The notes: generated from the sequence alone by a model not told the origin. A DNA stretch of 64,000 bases from an uncultured Clostridia bacterium (GCA_947591785.1 CANQDK010000005.1:46416-110415); one strand, 5' to 3'. Shown: positions 23,072 to 54,403, numbered from the stretch's first letter. Numbers and translations are program-made.

Positions 23072-23287
23072 TTTTTAATAAAATATTTTGCGAATAGATA
23101 AATATTAATAACCAAATATCTTTAAATGTATAATAACTAAATGGAGATGTAATAGCGAATTTTATATTCATAATAATGTAAAAAATCTATGTTGACTTAA
23201 TTTTGAAAAACGATAAAAAAACAAAATTAAATATGTTGCAGACATTTTATTAAGAGTATCTTATTTTAAGTCACATTAAAAAATTAT

Positions 23288-23350: not shown

Positions 23351-23390
23351 AGTTTGCATAATACCATATTTTGATAGTATTATGCAAACT
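23351..23390. repeat. Palindromic repeat copy E (upstream of attL)
   Basis: AGTTTGCATAATAC-12 nt-GTATTATGCAAACT, perfect 14-bp arms. Confidence 0.9.
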
Positions 23391-23410
23391 GTATACAAAA
23401 TATAGACTAA

Positions 23411-23440
23411 CTATGCGTAAAACCTGTCTTTTGAGTATGT
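23411..23440 (+). repeat. Left attachment site (attL), dif-like
   Basis: CTATGCGTAAAA-CCTGTC-TTTTGAGTATGT; shares the 18-nt core CGTAAAACCTGTCTTTTG with attR. Confidence 0.85.
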
Positions 23441-23517
23441 AATGTAATTTGTAATACAAAAATATTGCAAATATACGCAAGTATACATTTTTTGAGATCT
23501 TAAACCAGGAGGGGTAT

Positions 23518-23835
23518 ATGAAAAATGACATCACATTTTGGACAACGATTGCTTCTACAGCAGTTGGAATTGTTGGGTATGTTATCACTATCATTATCAA
23601 CAAGAAGAAAAATAAAGCTAGCAAGCTTGTTGAGCTTGCTAAAATTGTTCAAAAGTTGCCTGAGTTTATTGCTGAAGCTGAAAAAATTTTCGGATCCGGG
23701 AATGGAACTGCTAAATTAACATACGTTTTGAACAAAGTCCAAATAGAATGTTTAAAAAATAAAGTAGAATACAACGAAGAGCAATTCAAAGGTGAAATTG
23801 AAAACATATTAAGCACACCTGAAAAGAAGGCTTAA
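23518..23835 (+). CDS. Prophage holin-like single-TM protein
   Basis: RBS ggaggg, N-terminal TM (TIASTAVGIVGYVITIII), charged C-terminus with AKLTYVLNKVQ; LLH-holin resemblance by eye. Confidence 0.6.
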   Translation: MKNDITFWTTIASTAVGIVGYVITIIINKKKNKASKLVELAKIVQKLPEFIAEAEKIFGSGNGTAKLTYVLNKVQIECLKNKVEYNEEQFKGEIENILSTPEKKA

Positions 23836-23931
23836 ATGACAAAAAAAATGCTTAAAAAGGAAATTGACAAACTTAAGCTTGAAATAGAGCATAATAGGAA
23901 AATTATAAATTTTATTATAAAAAACCTATAA
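23836..23931 (+). CDS. Small prophage ORF, 31 aa (MTKKMLKKEIDKLKLEIEHNRKIINFIIKNL)
   Basis: ATG immediately after the preceding stop; not in the supplied ORF track. Confidence 0.4.
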   Translation: MTKKMLKKEIDKLKLEIEHNRKIINFIIKNL

Positions 23932-23954
23932 AAAATCAAAAAAAAGGAGCAAAA

Positions 23955-24074
23955 ATGAAAAAAACCGTTATGAAAAATAAAAGACGTGACCGTGCGTGCT
24001 TTGAAATCACGGCCAACAAAATTCACAAAAAAAATCTTGACACAACACAATCAAAAGGGGGGATTAGATTATGA
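23955..24074 (+). CDS. Small basic gokushovirus-type protein, 39 aa (MKKTVMKNKRRDRACFEITANKIHKKNLDTTQSKGGIRL)
   Basis: RBS aaggag, Arg/Lys-rich, ends GGIRL; ATGA overlap with the VP5-like ORF; below the track length cutoff. Confidence 0.7.
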   Translation: MKKTVMKNKRRDRACFEITANKIHKKNLDTTQSKGGIRL

Positions 24075-24331
24075 AACTTAAACTATTTGCAGTTAAAGAC
24101 ACAGTGCAAGGTGAAATGATGAACCCATTCTTGCTAAGAAACAATGAAGAAGCAAAGAGAACTTTTGCAACAGCAGTAAATTCTGGAAGAGATAATAACA
24201 TCTGTTTATATGCGAAAGATATGCAACTTTTCGAACTTGGCGAGTATGACACAATAACAGGAGAAATAACACCAAAAGTTGAATACGTATGCAGTGGGCT
24301 TGAATTTAAAGAAGAAAAAAAGGAGGCTTAA
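24071..24331 (+). CDS. Gokushovirus VP5-like non-structural protein
   Basis: FAVKDTVQGEMMNPFLLRNNEEAKRTFATAVN...YDTITGEITP pattern and genome position. Confidence 0.75.
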   Translation: MKLKLFAVKDTVQGEMMNPFLLRNNEEAKRTFATAVNSGRDNNICLYAKDMQLFELGEYDTITGEITPKVEYVCSGLEFKEEKKEA

Positions 24332-24892
24332 ATGAATTTCAAAAGCTTAACAAATTTACACGAGCCACACAAATTTGCAGAAGGTGGCTTCAAAGAAACT
24401 GTTGACGTTTATGAAGATATAATAAACGAAAAAACAGGAAAAGTTGAAACAAAGAAAACCAAAGAAGAAAACTTCTATGAAAAAATTCAAGAAATGAAAG
24501 AAAGTCAAATGCTAGAAAACATTATCAAGAGATACAACATTGATTTGAATGAAAATCACATCACAGAAATAAGAGAAGAAATTGTTGATATGACACAAAT
24601 TCCAGAAGATTTGATTGAAACATACGCAATGACAAAGAAACTTGAAACAATGTTCAATGAAACAACAGCGGACATTAAAAACCACTTCAAAGACTTTGCC
24701 GGGTTTTTGCAAAGTGTTCAAAAAGGAACTTTACAAAGTGAACTTCAAAGTCTAAGCAAAAGAAAAATAACACAACAACAAATGCCACAACAACAAGTGC
24801 AACAACAAATGCCACAACAAGAAATGCAACCACAACAACAAATAATGCAACAACCACAAAATCAAAATCAAGGGGGAATAATGTATGCCTGA
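24332..24892 (+). CDS. Gokushovirus internal scaffolding protein VP3 with Gln-rich tail
   Basis: Position immediately before VP1; charged N-half, poly-Q/MPQQ tail. Confidence 0.8.
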   Translation: MNFKSLTNLHEPHKFAEGGFKETVDVYEDIINEKTGKVETKKTKEENFYEKIQEMKESQMLENIIKRYNIDLNENHITEIREEIVDMTQIPEDLIETYAMTKKLETMFNETTADIKNHFKDFAGFLQSVQKGTLQSELQSLSKRKITQQQMPQQQVQQQMPQQEMQPQQQIMQQPQNQNQGGIMYA

Positions 24893-26588
24893 TAATAGAC
24901 AATTTGTTGAGAATATAGCTCAACTGATAAATAGACAACAAAGAACAAAATTCAATTTGACAGGAAACAACGGTGGCCTAAAATTGATGACCATGAACAA
25001 AGGTTATTTATATCCAATTTTCACACTCGAAGTTTTACCGGGGGATACATGGAGAGTTGATATTCAAGCATTAATACGTGCAACAACAATGATAAAACCA
25101 ATCATGAATAATATGTGGGCACAAATTCAATGCTTTTTCGTTCCAAACAGATTGACCTATAAACACTGGGAAGAAGTAATGGGTGAAAATAAGCAAGGGC
25201 CTTGGATAACAAATAAAGCAACTTATGAAGTGCCAAAATTAACAGCACCTGCAGGTGGGTGGAATCCAAAAACACTTGCGGACTATCTCGGAGTTCCAAC
25301 AAAAATTCCAAACTTGGAAATCAACTCGCTATACACAAAAGGTTATGCAAAAATTTGCAACGATTGGTATAGAGACGAAGACAGAATGAACTTCACACAC
25401 ATAACAGATGACGAAAAAAATTTGACAGGTGTAAACACAAAAAACTATGTGACAGACATTGAACTTGGCGGGGCATTATTTCCTGTTGCAAAAGCACATG
25501 ACATATTTACATCTTCTGCAATCGAACCACAAAAAGGCCCAACTGTTATGCTACCACTTGGAACAAGTGCACCAGTAAGTGTAAATGACCTTATGATTTA
25601 TGGAAACGGAATAACAATGGGCTTAACAGATGGAACCAATAAATTAGGCTTTGGCATAAGCACCGACATGAAAGTTTTCCCATCAGATGCCAAATACGGA
25701 AAAAATGTTGGAGATACGACAAGTGCAACAAATCACGGAAAAGCGAATGCATCATTAGGTTTAACAGAAGAACCAACAAAAAGCGGAATAACAGGAAAAG
25801 GCGAAGGAACTGCTGACCTATCACAAGCAACAGGGAGCTCTGTAAATGACCTAAGAATTGCAATAGCACTTCAACAGATGTATGAACTCGATGCACTTGC
25901 AGGCACAAGATACACAGAAATCATATTCTCACATTTTGGAGTAAGAAGCAGTGATGCAAGACTTCAAAGAAGTGAATATCTAGGCGGAAAGAAAGTTCCA
26001 ATCACAGTAACACAAGTCATTCAAAATTCAGAAACAGCAACAACACCACAAGGAAACTTAGCAGGAATGTCACAAAGCTTTGACGGAGACCACTATTTCA
26101 CGAAGTCATTCGAAGAACACGGAATATTGTATGTATGTTGTTGTATAAAAGGCGAAAACATATACCAACAAGGCTTACCTGCAAAATTCAGCAAATTCAA
26201 AAGAACGGACTATTACGACCCACTTTTCGCAAACCTTGGAATGCAACCAATTTTGAATAAAGAAATTTACGCACAGGGCAATTCAAAAGATAATGAAGCA
26301 TTCGGCTACAAAGAAGCATGGGCAGAATATAGATATTTGGAAAAAGAAGTTGCAGGAGAATTCAGAAGCAACTATGACCAATCAATCGATTATTGGCATA
26401 TCGCAAGAGACTTCAAAGAACTTCCAACAAATGGCGAAGAGTTCATAAAAGAAGGGCAATCAAACCTTGACAGAGCATTAACAGTTTCGAGTGAAGAAGC
26501 AGACCAATTCCAATGTGCATTCGCATTAAATGCAGTAGTAACTAGAGTTATGCCACCACACAGTGTGCCAGGATTAAAACGTTTCTAA
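24885..26588 (+). CDS. Microviridae major capsid protein VP1 (F protein)
   Basis: FTLEVLPGDTWRV, NRLTYKHWEEVMGEN, LAGTRYTEIIFSHFGVRSSDARLQRSEYLGG, C-terminal MPPHSVPGLKRF. Confidence 0.95.
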   Translation: MPDNRQFVENIAQLINRQQRTKFNLTGNNGGLKLMTMNKGYLYPIFTLEVLPGDTWRVDIQALIRATTMIKPIMNNMWAQIQCFFVPNRLTYKHWEEVMGENKQGPWITNKATYEVPKLTAPAGGWNPKTLADYLGVPTKIPNLEINSLYTKGYAKICNDWYRDEDRMNFTHITDDEKNLTGVNTKNYVTDIELGGALFPVAKAHDIFTSSAIEPQKGPTVMLPLGTSAPVSVNDLMIYGNGITMGLTDGTNKLGFGISTDMKVFPSDAKYGKNVGDTTSATNHGKANASLGLTEEPTKSGITGKGEGTADLSQATGSSVNDLRIAIALQQMYELDALAGTRYTEIIFSHFGVRSSDARLQRSEYLGGKKVPITVTQVIQNSETATTPQGNLAGMSQSFDGDHYFTKSFEEHGILYVCCCIKGENIYQQGLPAKFSKFKRTDYYDPLFANLGMQPILNKEIYAQGNSKDNEAFGYKEAWAEYRYLEKEVAGEFRSNYDQSIDYWHIARDFKELPTNGEEFIKEGQSNLDRALTVSSEEADQFQCAFALNAVVTRVMPPHSVPGLKRF

Positions 26589-26598
26589 GGAGTGAAGT

Positions 26599-27042
26599 AT
26601 GGAAAATCCAAACGGAGCAGTTAGAGAAAACTGGATAACAACAAATATAGGAAGCTTCTTCAATGATATAACAGGAGCAACTGCAACAAACAACTTTAAC
26701 GCAAGACAAGCTCAAATCCAAAGAGATTGGGAAATGGAGATGTCAAACACAGCATATCAGCGTGCGGTTGAAGATATGAAAAATGCCGGGTTAAATCCTG
26801 CTATGTTATATCAAAGCGGTGGACAAGGAGCAAGCACACCATCAGGAGCAAATGCAACAGGCCAAAAAGGCGGAATTGCAATGAACCTAATAGGACAAAC
26901 TGCAAACCTTGTAAACTCAATCACAAACGCGAGAAAAGTCGATGCAATTACAAAACATGACGAAATAAAATCAAATGACGTCTCAAGACTTTATAGAACA
27001 ACTGCAAGAATTGCAGAAATGTTAGCAAAATTTATGAGCTAG
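26599..27042 (+). CDS. DNA pilot/minor capsid protein VP2 (short, 147 aa)
   Basis: NNFNARQAQIQRDWEMEMSNTAYQRAVEDMKNAGLNPAMLYQSGG. Confidence 0.92.
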   Translation: MENPNGAVRENWITTNIGSFFNDITGATATNNFNARQAQIQRDWEMEMSNTAYQRAVEDMKNAGLNPAMLYQSGGQGASTPSGANATGQKGGIAMNLIGQTANLVNSITNARKVDAITKHDEIKSNDVSRLYRTTARIAEMLAKFMS

Positions 27043-27172
27043 AATCAACAAAAGTGACACGCTGGTGTCACTTAGCCACTAAATAAACAAGTATATAAAC
27101 ATGGCTAATTTAATAAATAACCTGCGTGTGCACGCACGCACGCGAGAGCGTTTATTAAATTTTGTTGATTCT
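27041..27172 (+). repeat. Nested inverted-repeat structure between VP2 and VP4
   Basis: Outer 13-bp perfect stem AGAATCAACAAAA/TTTTGTTGATTCT, hairpin AAGTGACACgctgGTGTCACTT, stem TTAGCCA/TGGCTAA, stem AATTTAATAAA/TTTATTAAATT capped by a CACGC-rich loop. Confidence 0.9.
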
Positions 27173-27185
27173 TAAGGAGTGAAGA

Positions 27186-28217
27186 ATGATAAGTTGTCCA
27201 AGACCGATGCACGCGTTCTTCACAGGTGAGAAAACCGCCGGGGGTGGTGAAAAATTGATTTTCCGAGACAGATTCACGGAAGAATTAAAATATATGCACC
27301 ACCTTCCAAAAGGCGGAGATGTTGAAGTAACGCTGACAGAATATGTTGAAATTCCCTGCGGGAACTGTGAAATTTGCAAAGCAAACCAAGCAAAAGCAAA
27401 AGCAGAAAGAGCAATAGCAGAGGCAATGAGTTGGGAACACAACGAAGTCATTAACTTAACTTACAACAACGAAAACCTACCAAAAAAGAAAAGACCAGAC
27501 GGAACGGAAGTAGCAACGTTAAATTATAAAGACGTTCAAGACTTCAAAAAAAGACTTTTGAAACAGTGGAAACAAAAATATAATGCAAATGGAATAAGAT
27601 TTCTATGTGCTTGTGAATATGGTGAAAAATATCAAAGACCACACTATCACTTAATTATGTTCAACTTTGAAGCACATGACAAGAAATTTTATGGCTACAC
27701 GTTAAAAGGCTCAAAAGAATGGGGTAGTGAAGAAATTGCTAAAATTTGGGGCAAAGGTAACATCACTATTGGAGAAGTTACACCGGCAACAATTCAGTAT
27801 GTTGCTAATTACTGTTTGAAGAAATTCAAAGGAAAAGAAGCAAAAGGTTATTACAAAGACCTTGGAATTGAACCAGAAAAGGTAACGTCAAGCAATAGAA
27901 AGGGCCTTGCGGGCGATTTTCTTGAAAAAAGGATAGAATTATACAAAAACACAGGAAAGTGCTTTGTAGGCACTGAAAACGGGCTTAAAACAATAGGTGT
28001 AAACAAATACTTTGACCAAAGAATAGCAAAAATTTATGGTGAAGATGTTTTGAAACAAATCAAAGAAGAAAGAATGCAACTTGCTAGCGACAGAGAAAAA
28101 ACAAGAGCATTCATAACAGGAATTGACATCGAAACACAAAGAGAAAATGATGAAAGACTGTTCCTAGAAAAAATAAAATCTGCCAAACAAAGAACATTTA
28201 AAAGCACAGGTTATTAA
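27186..28217 (+). CDS. Microvirus replication initiator VP4 (HUH endonuclease)
   Basis: PCGNCEICKANQAKAKAERA, CEYGEKYQRPHYHLIMFNF (HUH), IQYVANYCLKK. Confidence 0.94.
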   Translation: MISCPRPMHAFFTGEKTAGGGEKLIFRDRFTEELKYMHHLPKGGDVEVTLTEYVEIPCGNCEICKANQAKAKAERAIAEAMSWEHNEVINLTYNNENLPKKKRPDGTEVATLNYKDVQDFKKRLLKQWKQKYNANGIRFLCACEYGEKYQRPHYHLIMFNFEAHDKKFYGYTLKGSKEWGSEEIAKIWGKGNITIGEVTPATIQYVANYCLKKFKGKEAKGYYKDLGIEPEKVTSSNRKGLAGDFLEKRIELYKNTGKCFVGTENGLKTIGVNKYFDQRIAKIYGEDVLKQIKEERMQLASDREKTRAFITGIDIETQRENDERLFLEKIKSAKQRTFKSTGY

Positions 28218-28233
28218 GCTTGTGCTTTTTCTT
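28200..28233 (+). terminator. Terminator overlapping the VP4 stop
   Basis: AAAAGCACAggttattaagctTGTGCTTTTTCTTTTT. Confidence 0.8.
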
Positions 28234-28249
28234 TTTCCAAAAAGAAACA

Positions 28250-28402
28250 AAAAGGCTCCGCAAAATTACGACATTTGTCACAAATCTCTATTTTGCTCGT
28301 TCTCCCTAGGCGGGAAGCCTGAGTGTGCAGGCTGTCGGCCTCATTGTCGGCCCGGCTAGTGCGAGCGGGCAGTTTCCGTTAGCTCGTCAGCACAGAACAA
28401 TC
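28250..28402 (+). other. GC-rich multi-hairpin intergenic region of the prophage
   Basis: AGGCgggaaGCCT, GCCTGagtgtgCAGGC, GGCCtcattgtcGGCC, GCCCG...CGGGC, GAGC...GCTC in series, in an otherwise AT-rich background. Confidence 0.75.
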
Positions 28403-28440
28403 AAAAGAAAAAAATATTTAACTTTTTTTGGCAAAATTAG

Positions 28441-28469
28441 TTGACAAACAAAAATAACATAATTATAAT
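28441..28469 (+). promoter_or_regulatory. Sigma-A-type promoter of the RHH gene
   Basis: TTGACA-17 nt-TATAAT; overlapped by TAATACAaaaTGTATTA (28466-28482). Confidence 0.8.
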
Positions 28470-28525
28470 ACAAAATGTATTACAAAAATAAATACAAATT
28501 TATATCAATAAAAGGAGGTGAAAAA

Positions 28526-28675
28526 ATGACAAAGGTTCTTTACCAAGTTAGACTTGACGAAGATATAGTGCAAGGAATTGAAACAATCGCTAAACAAAAA
28601 AATAGAAAAAAAAGCGAAATTGTTAGAAAAATTCTTGAAAATTATGTTGAAAATTACAATTTATACAACAAATAA
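28526..28675 (+). CDS. Ribbon-helix-helix (CopG/Arc-like) regulator
   Basis: MTKVLYQVRLDEDIVQGIETIAKQKNRKKSEIVRKILENYVENY; RBS ggaggtg; start moved from 28475. Confidence 0.75.
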   Translation: MTKVLYQVRLDEDIVQGIETIAKQKNRKKSEIVRKILENYVENYNLYNK

Positions 28676-28700
28676 AAAAAACAAAATATTGTATGAATTA

Positions 28701-28720
28701 TGTTGCATAATACACTATAT
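28701..28720. repeat. Palindromic repeat copy F (half unit, inside prophage next to attR)
   Basis: TGTTGCATAATACACTATAT. Confidence 0.6.
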
Positions 28721-28729
28721 CTAACCTAA

Positions 28730-28759
28730 CTATTCGTAAAACCTGTCTTTTGCGAATAG
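28730..28759 (+). repeat. Right attachment site (attR), dif-like near-perfect palindrome
   Basis: CTATTCGTAAAA-CCTGTC-TTTTGCGAATAG; 12-bp arms with one mismatch, 6-bp centre. Confidence 0.87.
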
Positions 28760-53362: not shown

Positions 53363-54403
53363 ATGAAAAATCTTTCCTACTATGCCAAACGTGACTTGAA
53401 AAATATGCAAAAAATAGGTTCTTATCTCCAAAATCTACCAGATTTTTGCTATGATTTCTTCACAGGAATTGAAAACAACACCTCAACCCTAACTCGAGTC
53501 AATTACGCTATGGATTTGGCTGTTTTTTTTGATTACCTTGAAAAATATGTTATTAAAAAACCAAAAGCTGAAATCACTCTTGCGGACTTAGAAAAATTGG
53601 AAGCTCGAAACATTGAAAACTACCTTTCCTATCTCTCCTATTATGAGATAAATGACAAAATGCAAAGAAACACAGAACGAGGGAAAGCCCGAAAACTTGC
53701 ATCAGTAAGGAGTTTTTTTAAATATTTGTTTGACCATGATATGTTGTCAAGTAATGTTGCAAGCAAAATAAGAACCCCAAAACTTCATAATAAAGAAATC
53801 ATTAGACTTGAGGAAGACGAAGTTGAACGTATGCTAGATGCAGTTCAAAGTCCAACCACTTTTTCAAAGCGTCAAAAAAATTATAACAAACACACACAGG
53901 AAAGAGATAATGCAATTGTAACACTTTTTCTTGGAACAGGAATTCGTATTTCAGAACTTGTAGGACTTAATATTGAAGATTTTGATTTTTCACAAAATGC
54001 TTTTAAAGTGACAAGAAAAGGTGGAAATCAAACAATATTATATTTTTCATTGGAAGTTAAAACAGCACTTGAAGAATGGCTCGAAAAACGTAAAACCTTG
54101 AAACTTGACCCTGATGAAAATGCGATGTTTGTGTCACTGCAAAATAAAAGAATCTGTGTGAGAGCAGTTGAAAATCTTGTAAAAAAATTTGCAAAAGAAT
54201 CCACCCCTTTAAAGAAAATATCTCCACACAAACTTCGTTCAACCTTTGGCACAAACTTATACCGCGAAACAAAAGACATTTATATTGTTGCGGATGTTCT
54301 TGGGCATAAAGATGTCAACACAACCAAGCGTCATTATGCTGCAATAAGTGAAGATATGAGAAAAAGCGTTGCTGGAAAAATTAAAATACATAGAGCAGAC
54401 TGA
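53363..54403 (+). CDS. Xer-type tyrosine recombinase
   Basis: FLGTGIRISELVGLNIEDFDF, SPHKLRSTFGTNLYRET, VLGHKDVNTTKRHY (R..HxxR..H..Y catalytic set); 346 aa with a long N-domain. Confidence 0.93.
   Translation: MKNLSYYAKRDLKNMQKIGSYLQNLPDFCYDFFTGIENNTSTLTRVNYAMDLAVFFDYLEKYVIKKPKAEITLADLEKLEARNIENYLSYLSYYEINDKMQRNTERGKARKLASVRSFFKYLFDHDMLSSNVASKIRTPKLHNKEIIRLEEDEVERMLDAVQSPTTFSKRQKNYNKHTQERDNAIVTLFLGTGIRISELVGLNIEDFDFSQNAFKVTRKGGNQTILYFSLEVKTALEEWLEKRKTLKLDPDENAMFVSLQNKRICVRAVENLVKKFAKESTPLKKISPHKLRSTFGTNLYRETKDIYIVADVLGHKDVNTTKRHYAAISEDMRKSVAGKIKIHRAD

Follow-up and report, generated by a model that had tools for sequence, protein, structure and literature searches.

How does a small phage that encodes no integrase come to lie in the chromosome of a gut bacterium, and which enzyme could have placed it there? 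The question is raised by a 64,000-nucleotide stretch of DNA (the window) from an uncultured Clostridia bacterium (GCA_947591785.1, CANQDK010000005.1:46416-110415), in which positions 23411-28759 form an intact gokushovirus prophage, a single unit of 5319 bp with exact ends at 23411-23440 and 28730-28759. Gokushoviruses are among the commonest phages of the animal gut; most are without a known host, and they are usually presumed to be lytic. It is very probable that the element in the window is a temperate gokushovirus integrated at the dif site of its host by the host's own Xer recombinase. The dif site lies at the chromosome terminus, and chromosome dimers are resolved there by the recombinase of the cell. 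All prophage genes are open and lie on one strand, as judged by profile searches and sequence reading, and homologues of VP1, VP2, VP3, VP4 and VP5 are all present within 5319 bp, which fits a Gokushovirinae-type genome of ~4.5-5.5 kb; the profile searches found no integrase or recombinase of its own among the prophage genes. The prophage is flanked by NifS-IscU on its left side and by Sel1-Tgt on its right. The profile matches, together with the placement of VP1 among gokushoviruses, bear out a preliminary description of a complete gokushovirus prophage in a Firmicute chromosome, a one-strand module of 5319 bp per unit with uninterrupted genes between iscU and a Sel1 gene.

The two ends of the prophage are recombinant attachment sites. 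The left site, attL (23411-23440, plus strand), reads CTATGCGTAAAA-CCTGTC-TTTTGAGTATGT and consists of the host left arm, the core and a degenerate phage right arm. The right site, attR (28730-28759, plus strand), reads CTATTCGTAAAA-CCTGTC-TTTTGCGAATAG and combines the phage left arm, the core and the host right arm in a complete, near-perfect 12-6-12 dif palindrome; the portion common to both repeats is the arm plus core of a dif site. The direct repeats first described are indeed 5319 bp apart, but they are not near-identical, agreeing at 76% over 58 nt. The attachment site that had seemed unusual is the host dif. The GC skew of the window switches sign at the prophage, and in the host sequence of the window, with the prophage removed, the cumulative GC skew reaches its maximum at 23356, 55 bp from attL. 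A search with up to 3 mismatches found a single copy of the 30-bp site in each of 28 genomes among the 61 relatives, and a reversed-sequence control gave zero matches. The site lies near the positive-to-negative GC-skew switch in all 12 relatives that were fetched, at a distance of ~1 kb or less in most and about 2-3 kb in L052 and L056. The canonical Firmicute XerCD dif was not seen at the prophage ends, which fit the 12-6-12 palindrome; a tRNA attachment site was rejected, as the window is without any tRNA, and no structured RNA families were found in 20-32 kb of the window. Carrying a dif mimic, sitting at dif and being without its own integrase, the prophage resembles on these points the integrative mobile elements exploiting Xer (IMEX), and its integration would depend on the host Xer.

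Swapping the arms at the core yields a deduced attB, CTATGCGTAAAACCTGTCTTTTGCGAATAG, and the search for an empty site in related genomes, proposed in the preliminary description, found exactly this sequence in the relative G003 (locus L054), where it lies between IscU and Tgt without a phage and shares its left arm with attL. The phage-free order iscU-dif-Tgt is present in L047, L050, L054 and L055, and in L028 flank matches occur on both sides of its site. The deduced attP, CTATTCGTAAAACCTGTCTTTTGAGTATGT, lies between the genes for a ribbon-helix-helix (RHH) protein and a holin-like protein. The nearest free genomes, the faecal phages PQ006699.1 (VP1 78.5%) and MZ089778.1 (VP1 75.0%), have the same gene order as the prophage and carry the arm, the core and a degenerate right arm at the predicted attP position. 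Three further faecal phages carry an attP with other cores, about 0.05-0.1 matches being expected in each. The empty site in near relatives, together with the half-site in free virions, indicates that common gut gokushoviruses can be temperate in Gram-positive gut bacteria. In a capsid scan of IMG/VR, the best 80 matches were mostly distant (35-42%), and the arm motif was present in 7 of these 80 against about 3 expected by shuffling, giving no clear signal.

The phage sequence at 28690-28729 (TTATGTTGCATAATACAC), upstream of attR, has a match in the host DNA that precedes the empty dif of L028, so that phage-host similarity reaches past the core site. An orphan right dif arm, TTTTGCGAATAG, lies at 23086-23097, just past iscU and 325 bp from attL, and comparable orphan arms stand directly after iscU in the relatives L028 (1757) and L047 (10408); the arm after iscU may be a relic or may serve as an accessory Xer site.

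The window prophage does not stand alone: ten related prophages, itself included, were found in separate assemblies (the window, L059, L060, L062, L064, L065, L066, L068, L070 and L071). In all ten, the left and right sites have the left arm and the core in common, the palindrome is complete or nearly so in the right-hand site, and the right arm of the left-hand site is altered. The core varies by host (CCTGTC, GACAGG, CACTTC, GACAAC, GCCTTC, CAATAC, TACAGA), and the attL core equals the attR core in eight of the ten, with 2 differences in L064 and L071. If exchange takes place at the left core edge, the core of attL would come from the phage and that of attR from the host, and the two would therefore have been matched before integration. 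L059 occupies the same iscU-Sel1-Tgt slot with its core inverted and its phage inverted too, which indicates that the direction of the core sets the direction of insertion.

Four tyrosine recombinases were found in the host genome. One of them, a protein of 346 aa encoded at 53363-54403 on the plus strand, matches XerS best among the curated profiles, is retained in 59 of the 61 relatives and is most likely the enzyme that serves both dif and the phage. Its gene shares a contig with the site in 22 of 28 genomes, at a distance of 74-643 bp in eight genomes of other families and of 2.5-25 kb in fourteen of the genus, and it lies within about 5 kb of related prophages. The host thus appears to have a single-recombinase Xer system, the linkage of one ~350-aa enzyme to one site being characteristic of XerS and XerH systems (PMC5357621).

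The regulator beside the attachment site is a CopG/Arc-like RHH protein of 49 aa (28526-28675, plus strand; PF01402, E 7e-5, over cut-off), and an RHH gene stands at the equivalent place in six related prophages and in free phages. It is preceded by a sigma-70-type promoter with a perfect 12/12 match (28441-28469, plus strand), the end of which is overlapped by the palindrome TAATACAAAATGTATTA (28466-28482). Beside attL lies a related operator-like palindrome, TTTGTAATACAAA (23448-23460, no strand assigned), overlapping a 15-nt element that agrees at 14/15 positions with one in the region of the RHH promoter. Of 12 related phages, 8 have a phage-specific element that occurs both ahead of the RHH gene and in the stretch from attP to the next gene, its score being reached by at most 7 of 200 shuffles; the element differs from phage to phage. 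The RHH protein is probably a lysogeny regulator, and the simplest reading is that of a repressor, since other members of the clade (L062, L066, L068) have in its place an RstR-like repressor, divergently oriented at the opposite side of att and assigned by a profile match for L066 and by sequence resemblance for L062 and L068. In L066 (8247-18622), two tandem gokushovirus prophages are 100% identical over about 4.6 kb save the first ~500 bp, which form the repressor region, with an RstR-like helix-turn-helix protein, and show 57-89% identity between the copies. This suggests heteroimmune double lysogens, a reading that calls for caution, as an exact repeat of 4.6 kb was assembled here from short reads.

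On this basis, a mechanism can be proposed, in which catalysis, excision, induction and repression are inferred from sequence. The circular phage would present an attP in which a good 12-nt Xer arm is joined to a 6-bp core identical to that of the host dif and to a second arm that is degenerate. Exchange of strands within the core would produce attL, with the host left arm and the phage right side, and attR, with the phage left arm and the host right arm; as the palindrome is complete in attR, a functional dif should be left to the cell, and the phage should still be able to excise. The asymmetric core would fix the direction of insertion, the single XerS-like enzyme would most likely perform the recombination, and the RHH protein, expressed from its consensus promoter, would probably repress its own gene and the holin-side operon through shared operators flanking attP. 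That the prophage is inducible, as had been suggested, is plausible, its near relatives being known as complete circular records from faecal samples. With somewhat better than even confidence, we propose further that gut Clostridia possess an undescribed single-recombinase Xer/dif system (XerS-like, 12-6-12) and a gokushovirus clade specialised on it, characterized by a half-dif with the host core, lysogeny controlled by its own RHH or RstR-like repressor, and heteroimmune tandem lysogens.

Several explanations compete with parts of this account. The same dif integration might be due to a classical XerC/XerD pair overlooked by the profiles, the palindromic site then being an odd XerCD dif. Such a pair is used by most Firmicutes studied (PMC3025954, PMC5357621), and two relatives of other families (G040, G044) each encode a second protein that matches XerD better, scoring 280 and 244 bits, below the cut-off. 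However, the XerC or XerD cut-off was passed in none of 41 relatives, and several near-complete genomes, among them G005, G023 and G039, have one XerD-model match each although the site is present in their chromosomes; a nearly perfectly symmetric site that is linked to one gene, moreover, typifies single-recombinase systems (PMC5357621), which makes the pair unlikely. Far less credible still is an assembly or binning artefact, in which a free circular microvirus was joined to the chromosome through a chance repeat. The fragmentation of the host assembly would allow it, and assignments of microviruses to Gram-positive hosts from metagenome bins are described as error-prone in PMC9239249, but a single 110-kb contig holds both flanks, the arms at the two ends are different and recombinant, one relative has an exact empty site, and the structure recurs, with different sequences, in ten related prophages that were assembled separately; the mis-assembled free phage considered in the preliminary description is accordingly very unlikely. 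The degenerate right arm of attL, in prophages whose excision is a prediction, might also point to a degraded or domesticated relic that has become immobile. Every gene is open, however, and the nearest free phages agree with the prophage in gene order and in the degenerate arm, which they carry in attP, so that this degeneracy is normal for the free form and a relic is distinctly improbable.

A larger, though still minor, chance attaches to the view that the RHH protein governs not lysogeny but plasmid-like copy number or the direction of recombination, binding beside attP as an accessory factor. Control of copy number or directionality is a common role of small RHH proteins, and the operator-like sequence abuts the degenerate att arm; the RstR-like repressors that replace the RHH protein in other prophages of the clade, divergent and across att, speak for a repressor. 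Integration of a temperate gokushovirus at dif by the host Xer enzyme remains the preferred explanation, and several points weigh against it. The protein encoded at 53363-54403 scores 188 bits against the XerS profile, below the cut-off of 267, and is for this reason called XerS-like and not XerS, and the XerS cut-off was passed in none of 41 relatives; its link to dif and the phage is a proposed one, and the better XerD-like proteins of G040 and G044 count on the same side. The host genome is an assembly of 16 contigs, the excision, circular form and induction of the window prophage are predictions, and in L064, L065, L071 and L189 operators are shared weakly or not at all.

The gene content is that of an intact gokushovirus, and all genes named here are on the plus strand. 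The first gene, previously taken as VP5-like, encodes a holin-like (LLH) membrane protein of 105 aa (23518-23835; phrog_6918, E 3e-10; Pfam Holin_LLH, E 4e-4, under its cut-off), which is present in L059 and L065 too. The VP5/ORF5-like DNA-binding protein is encoded at 24071-24331 instead (PF20577, Phage_ORF5, E 3e-19; phrog_1670). The assignments of VP3, VP1, VP2 and VP4 stand, corresponding to the internal scaffolding protein (24332-24892; PF09675, Chlamy_scaf, E 8e-12), the major capsid protein (24885-26588; PF02305, Phage_F, E 1e-134, and tree), the DNA pilot protein of 147 aa (26599-27042; phrog_11693, E 7e-25) and the rolling-circle replication initiator (27186-28217; phrog_942, E 5e-78; PF23343, E 3e-17). 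The earlier gene list had overlooked the RHH gene and a 39-aa basic peptide (23955-24074) read from the sequence as a J-like DNA-binding protein by size, position and composition; PQ006699.1 has a 39-aa 'DNA binding protein' at the equivalent position. Truncation of VP2 was ruled out, as the VP2 of free relatives is similarly short.

A VP1 tree of 57 rows, including phiMH2K, places the window inside the gokushovirus capsids, in a clade with L059, PQ006699.1, MZ089778.1 and L060 at 100/100, which is nested in a set of 30 rows (100/99) composed mostly of gut Clostridia prophages and faecal phages. The phylogenetic check against Microviridae that had been called for is thus answered by a well-supported gut-Clostridia clade. 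The enterobacterial capsid L078 falls outside the clade of the window, and the prophage, having a Clostridia host, does not belong to Enterogokushovirus. A single origin of the dif-integrated trait is unsupported on this tree, on which the label needs 7 changes and the labels depend on contig completeness. The host belongs to an uncultured Clostridia lineage, the nearest named prophage carrier being Candidatus Caccovivens faecavium; its description as sporulating has some support from a Spo0A_C match of 133 bits in the host genome. Capsids were found in 3 of 396 genomes of the order, all three of the same family, and in 9 of 197 genomes of the family; the two samples differ, so that prevalence is only roughly estimated.

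Dif-integrated gokushoviruses are already known. Escherichia gokushoviruses are integrated at dif with a demonstrated need for XerC and XerD, and dif-like motifs occur in 48 further metagenome-assembled genomes (PMC7062461). Enterogokushovirus EC6098 and its relatives resemble the prophage described here in having no integrase, in using the host Xer at dif, and in having one flanking dif conserved and the other variable, but in their enterobacterial hosts they depend on XerC/XerD and on a dif whose 11-bp arms enclose a 6-bp spacer (PMC7062461), whereas the window, from a Clostridia host, combines an XerS-like single recombinase and a 12-6-12 palindrome with an RHH regulator and a holin-like gene. 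The word 'repressor' is absent from the main text of that paper, the introduction of which describes gokushovirus genomes as being without a phiX-type lysis gene (PMC7062461). The BMV proviruses of Bacteroidetes are likewise integrase-less microviruses between dif-like repeats, but they form a separate capsid lineage in XerCD hosts, and their terminus location could not be tested (PMC3091885). The first Gram-positive microvirus prophages date from 2022 (PMC9239249); those of Erysipelatoclostridium and Mammaliicoccus belong to other host lineages, and the passages on them name no integration site.

XerS/difSL of streptococci and lactococci and XerH/difH also pair one ~350-aa recombinase with one linked dif-like site, as is found here, but difSL is 31 bp long with an 11-bp centre (PMC5357621), whereas the present site has 30 bp, is nearly symmetric and has a 6-bp centre, and the protein falls short of the curated XerS cut-off. 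LME-1 of Legionella is similarly a mobile IMEX on a single-recombinase dif (XerL) that revealed its host system, but it is phage-like and not described as a microvirus, and xerL lies >400 kb from dif (PMC9765430). No paper on microviruses at a single-recombinase dif, or on such a system in Clostridia, was found in a search confined to an open-access library; what is new is the single-recombinase dif in Clostridia, the host-matched cores and the regulators beside att. The dif core acts as a host tag, through which a phage attP could be matched to a host dif, allowing direct host assignment for virome genomes.

Related prophages also occur in two cultured strains. In Oscillibacter sp. PC13 (L073:6440-12870), a possible cultured test case, a Xer-like gene and the palindrome TTGAACAAAATTTTTATTTTGTTCAA are followed by a gokushovirus with an M15-type peptidase gene. 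In Phascolarctobacterium faecium DSM 14760 (L081:9854-14405), a gokushovirus lies between ATATATTATGTAAA repeats 4533 bp apart, which are like a canonical XerCD dif half. Gokushovirus prophages of Melainabacteria/Gastranaerophilales (L079:8500-14059, L076:8693-14246) lie between dif-like repeats of the TTATGTAA type.

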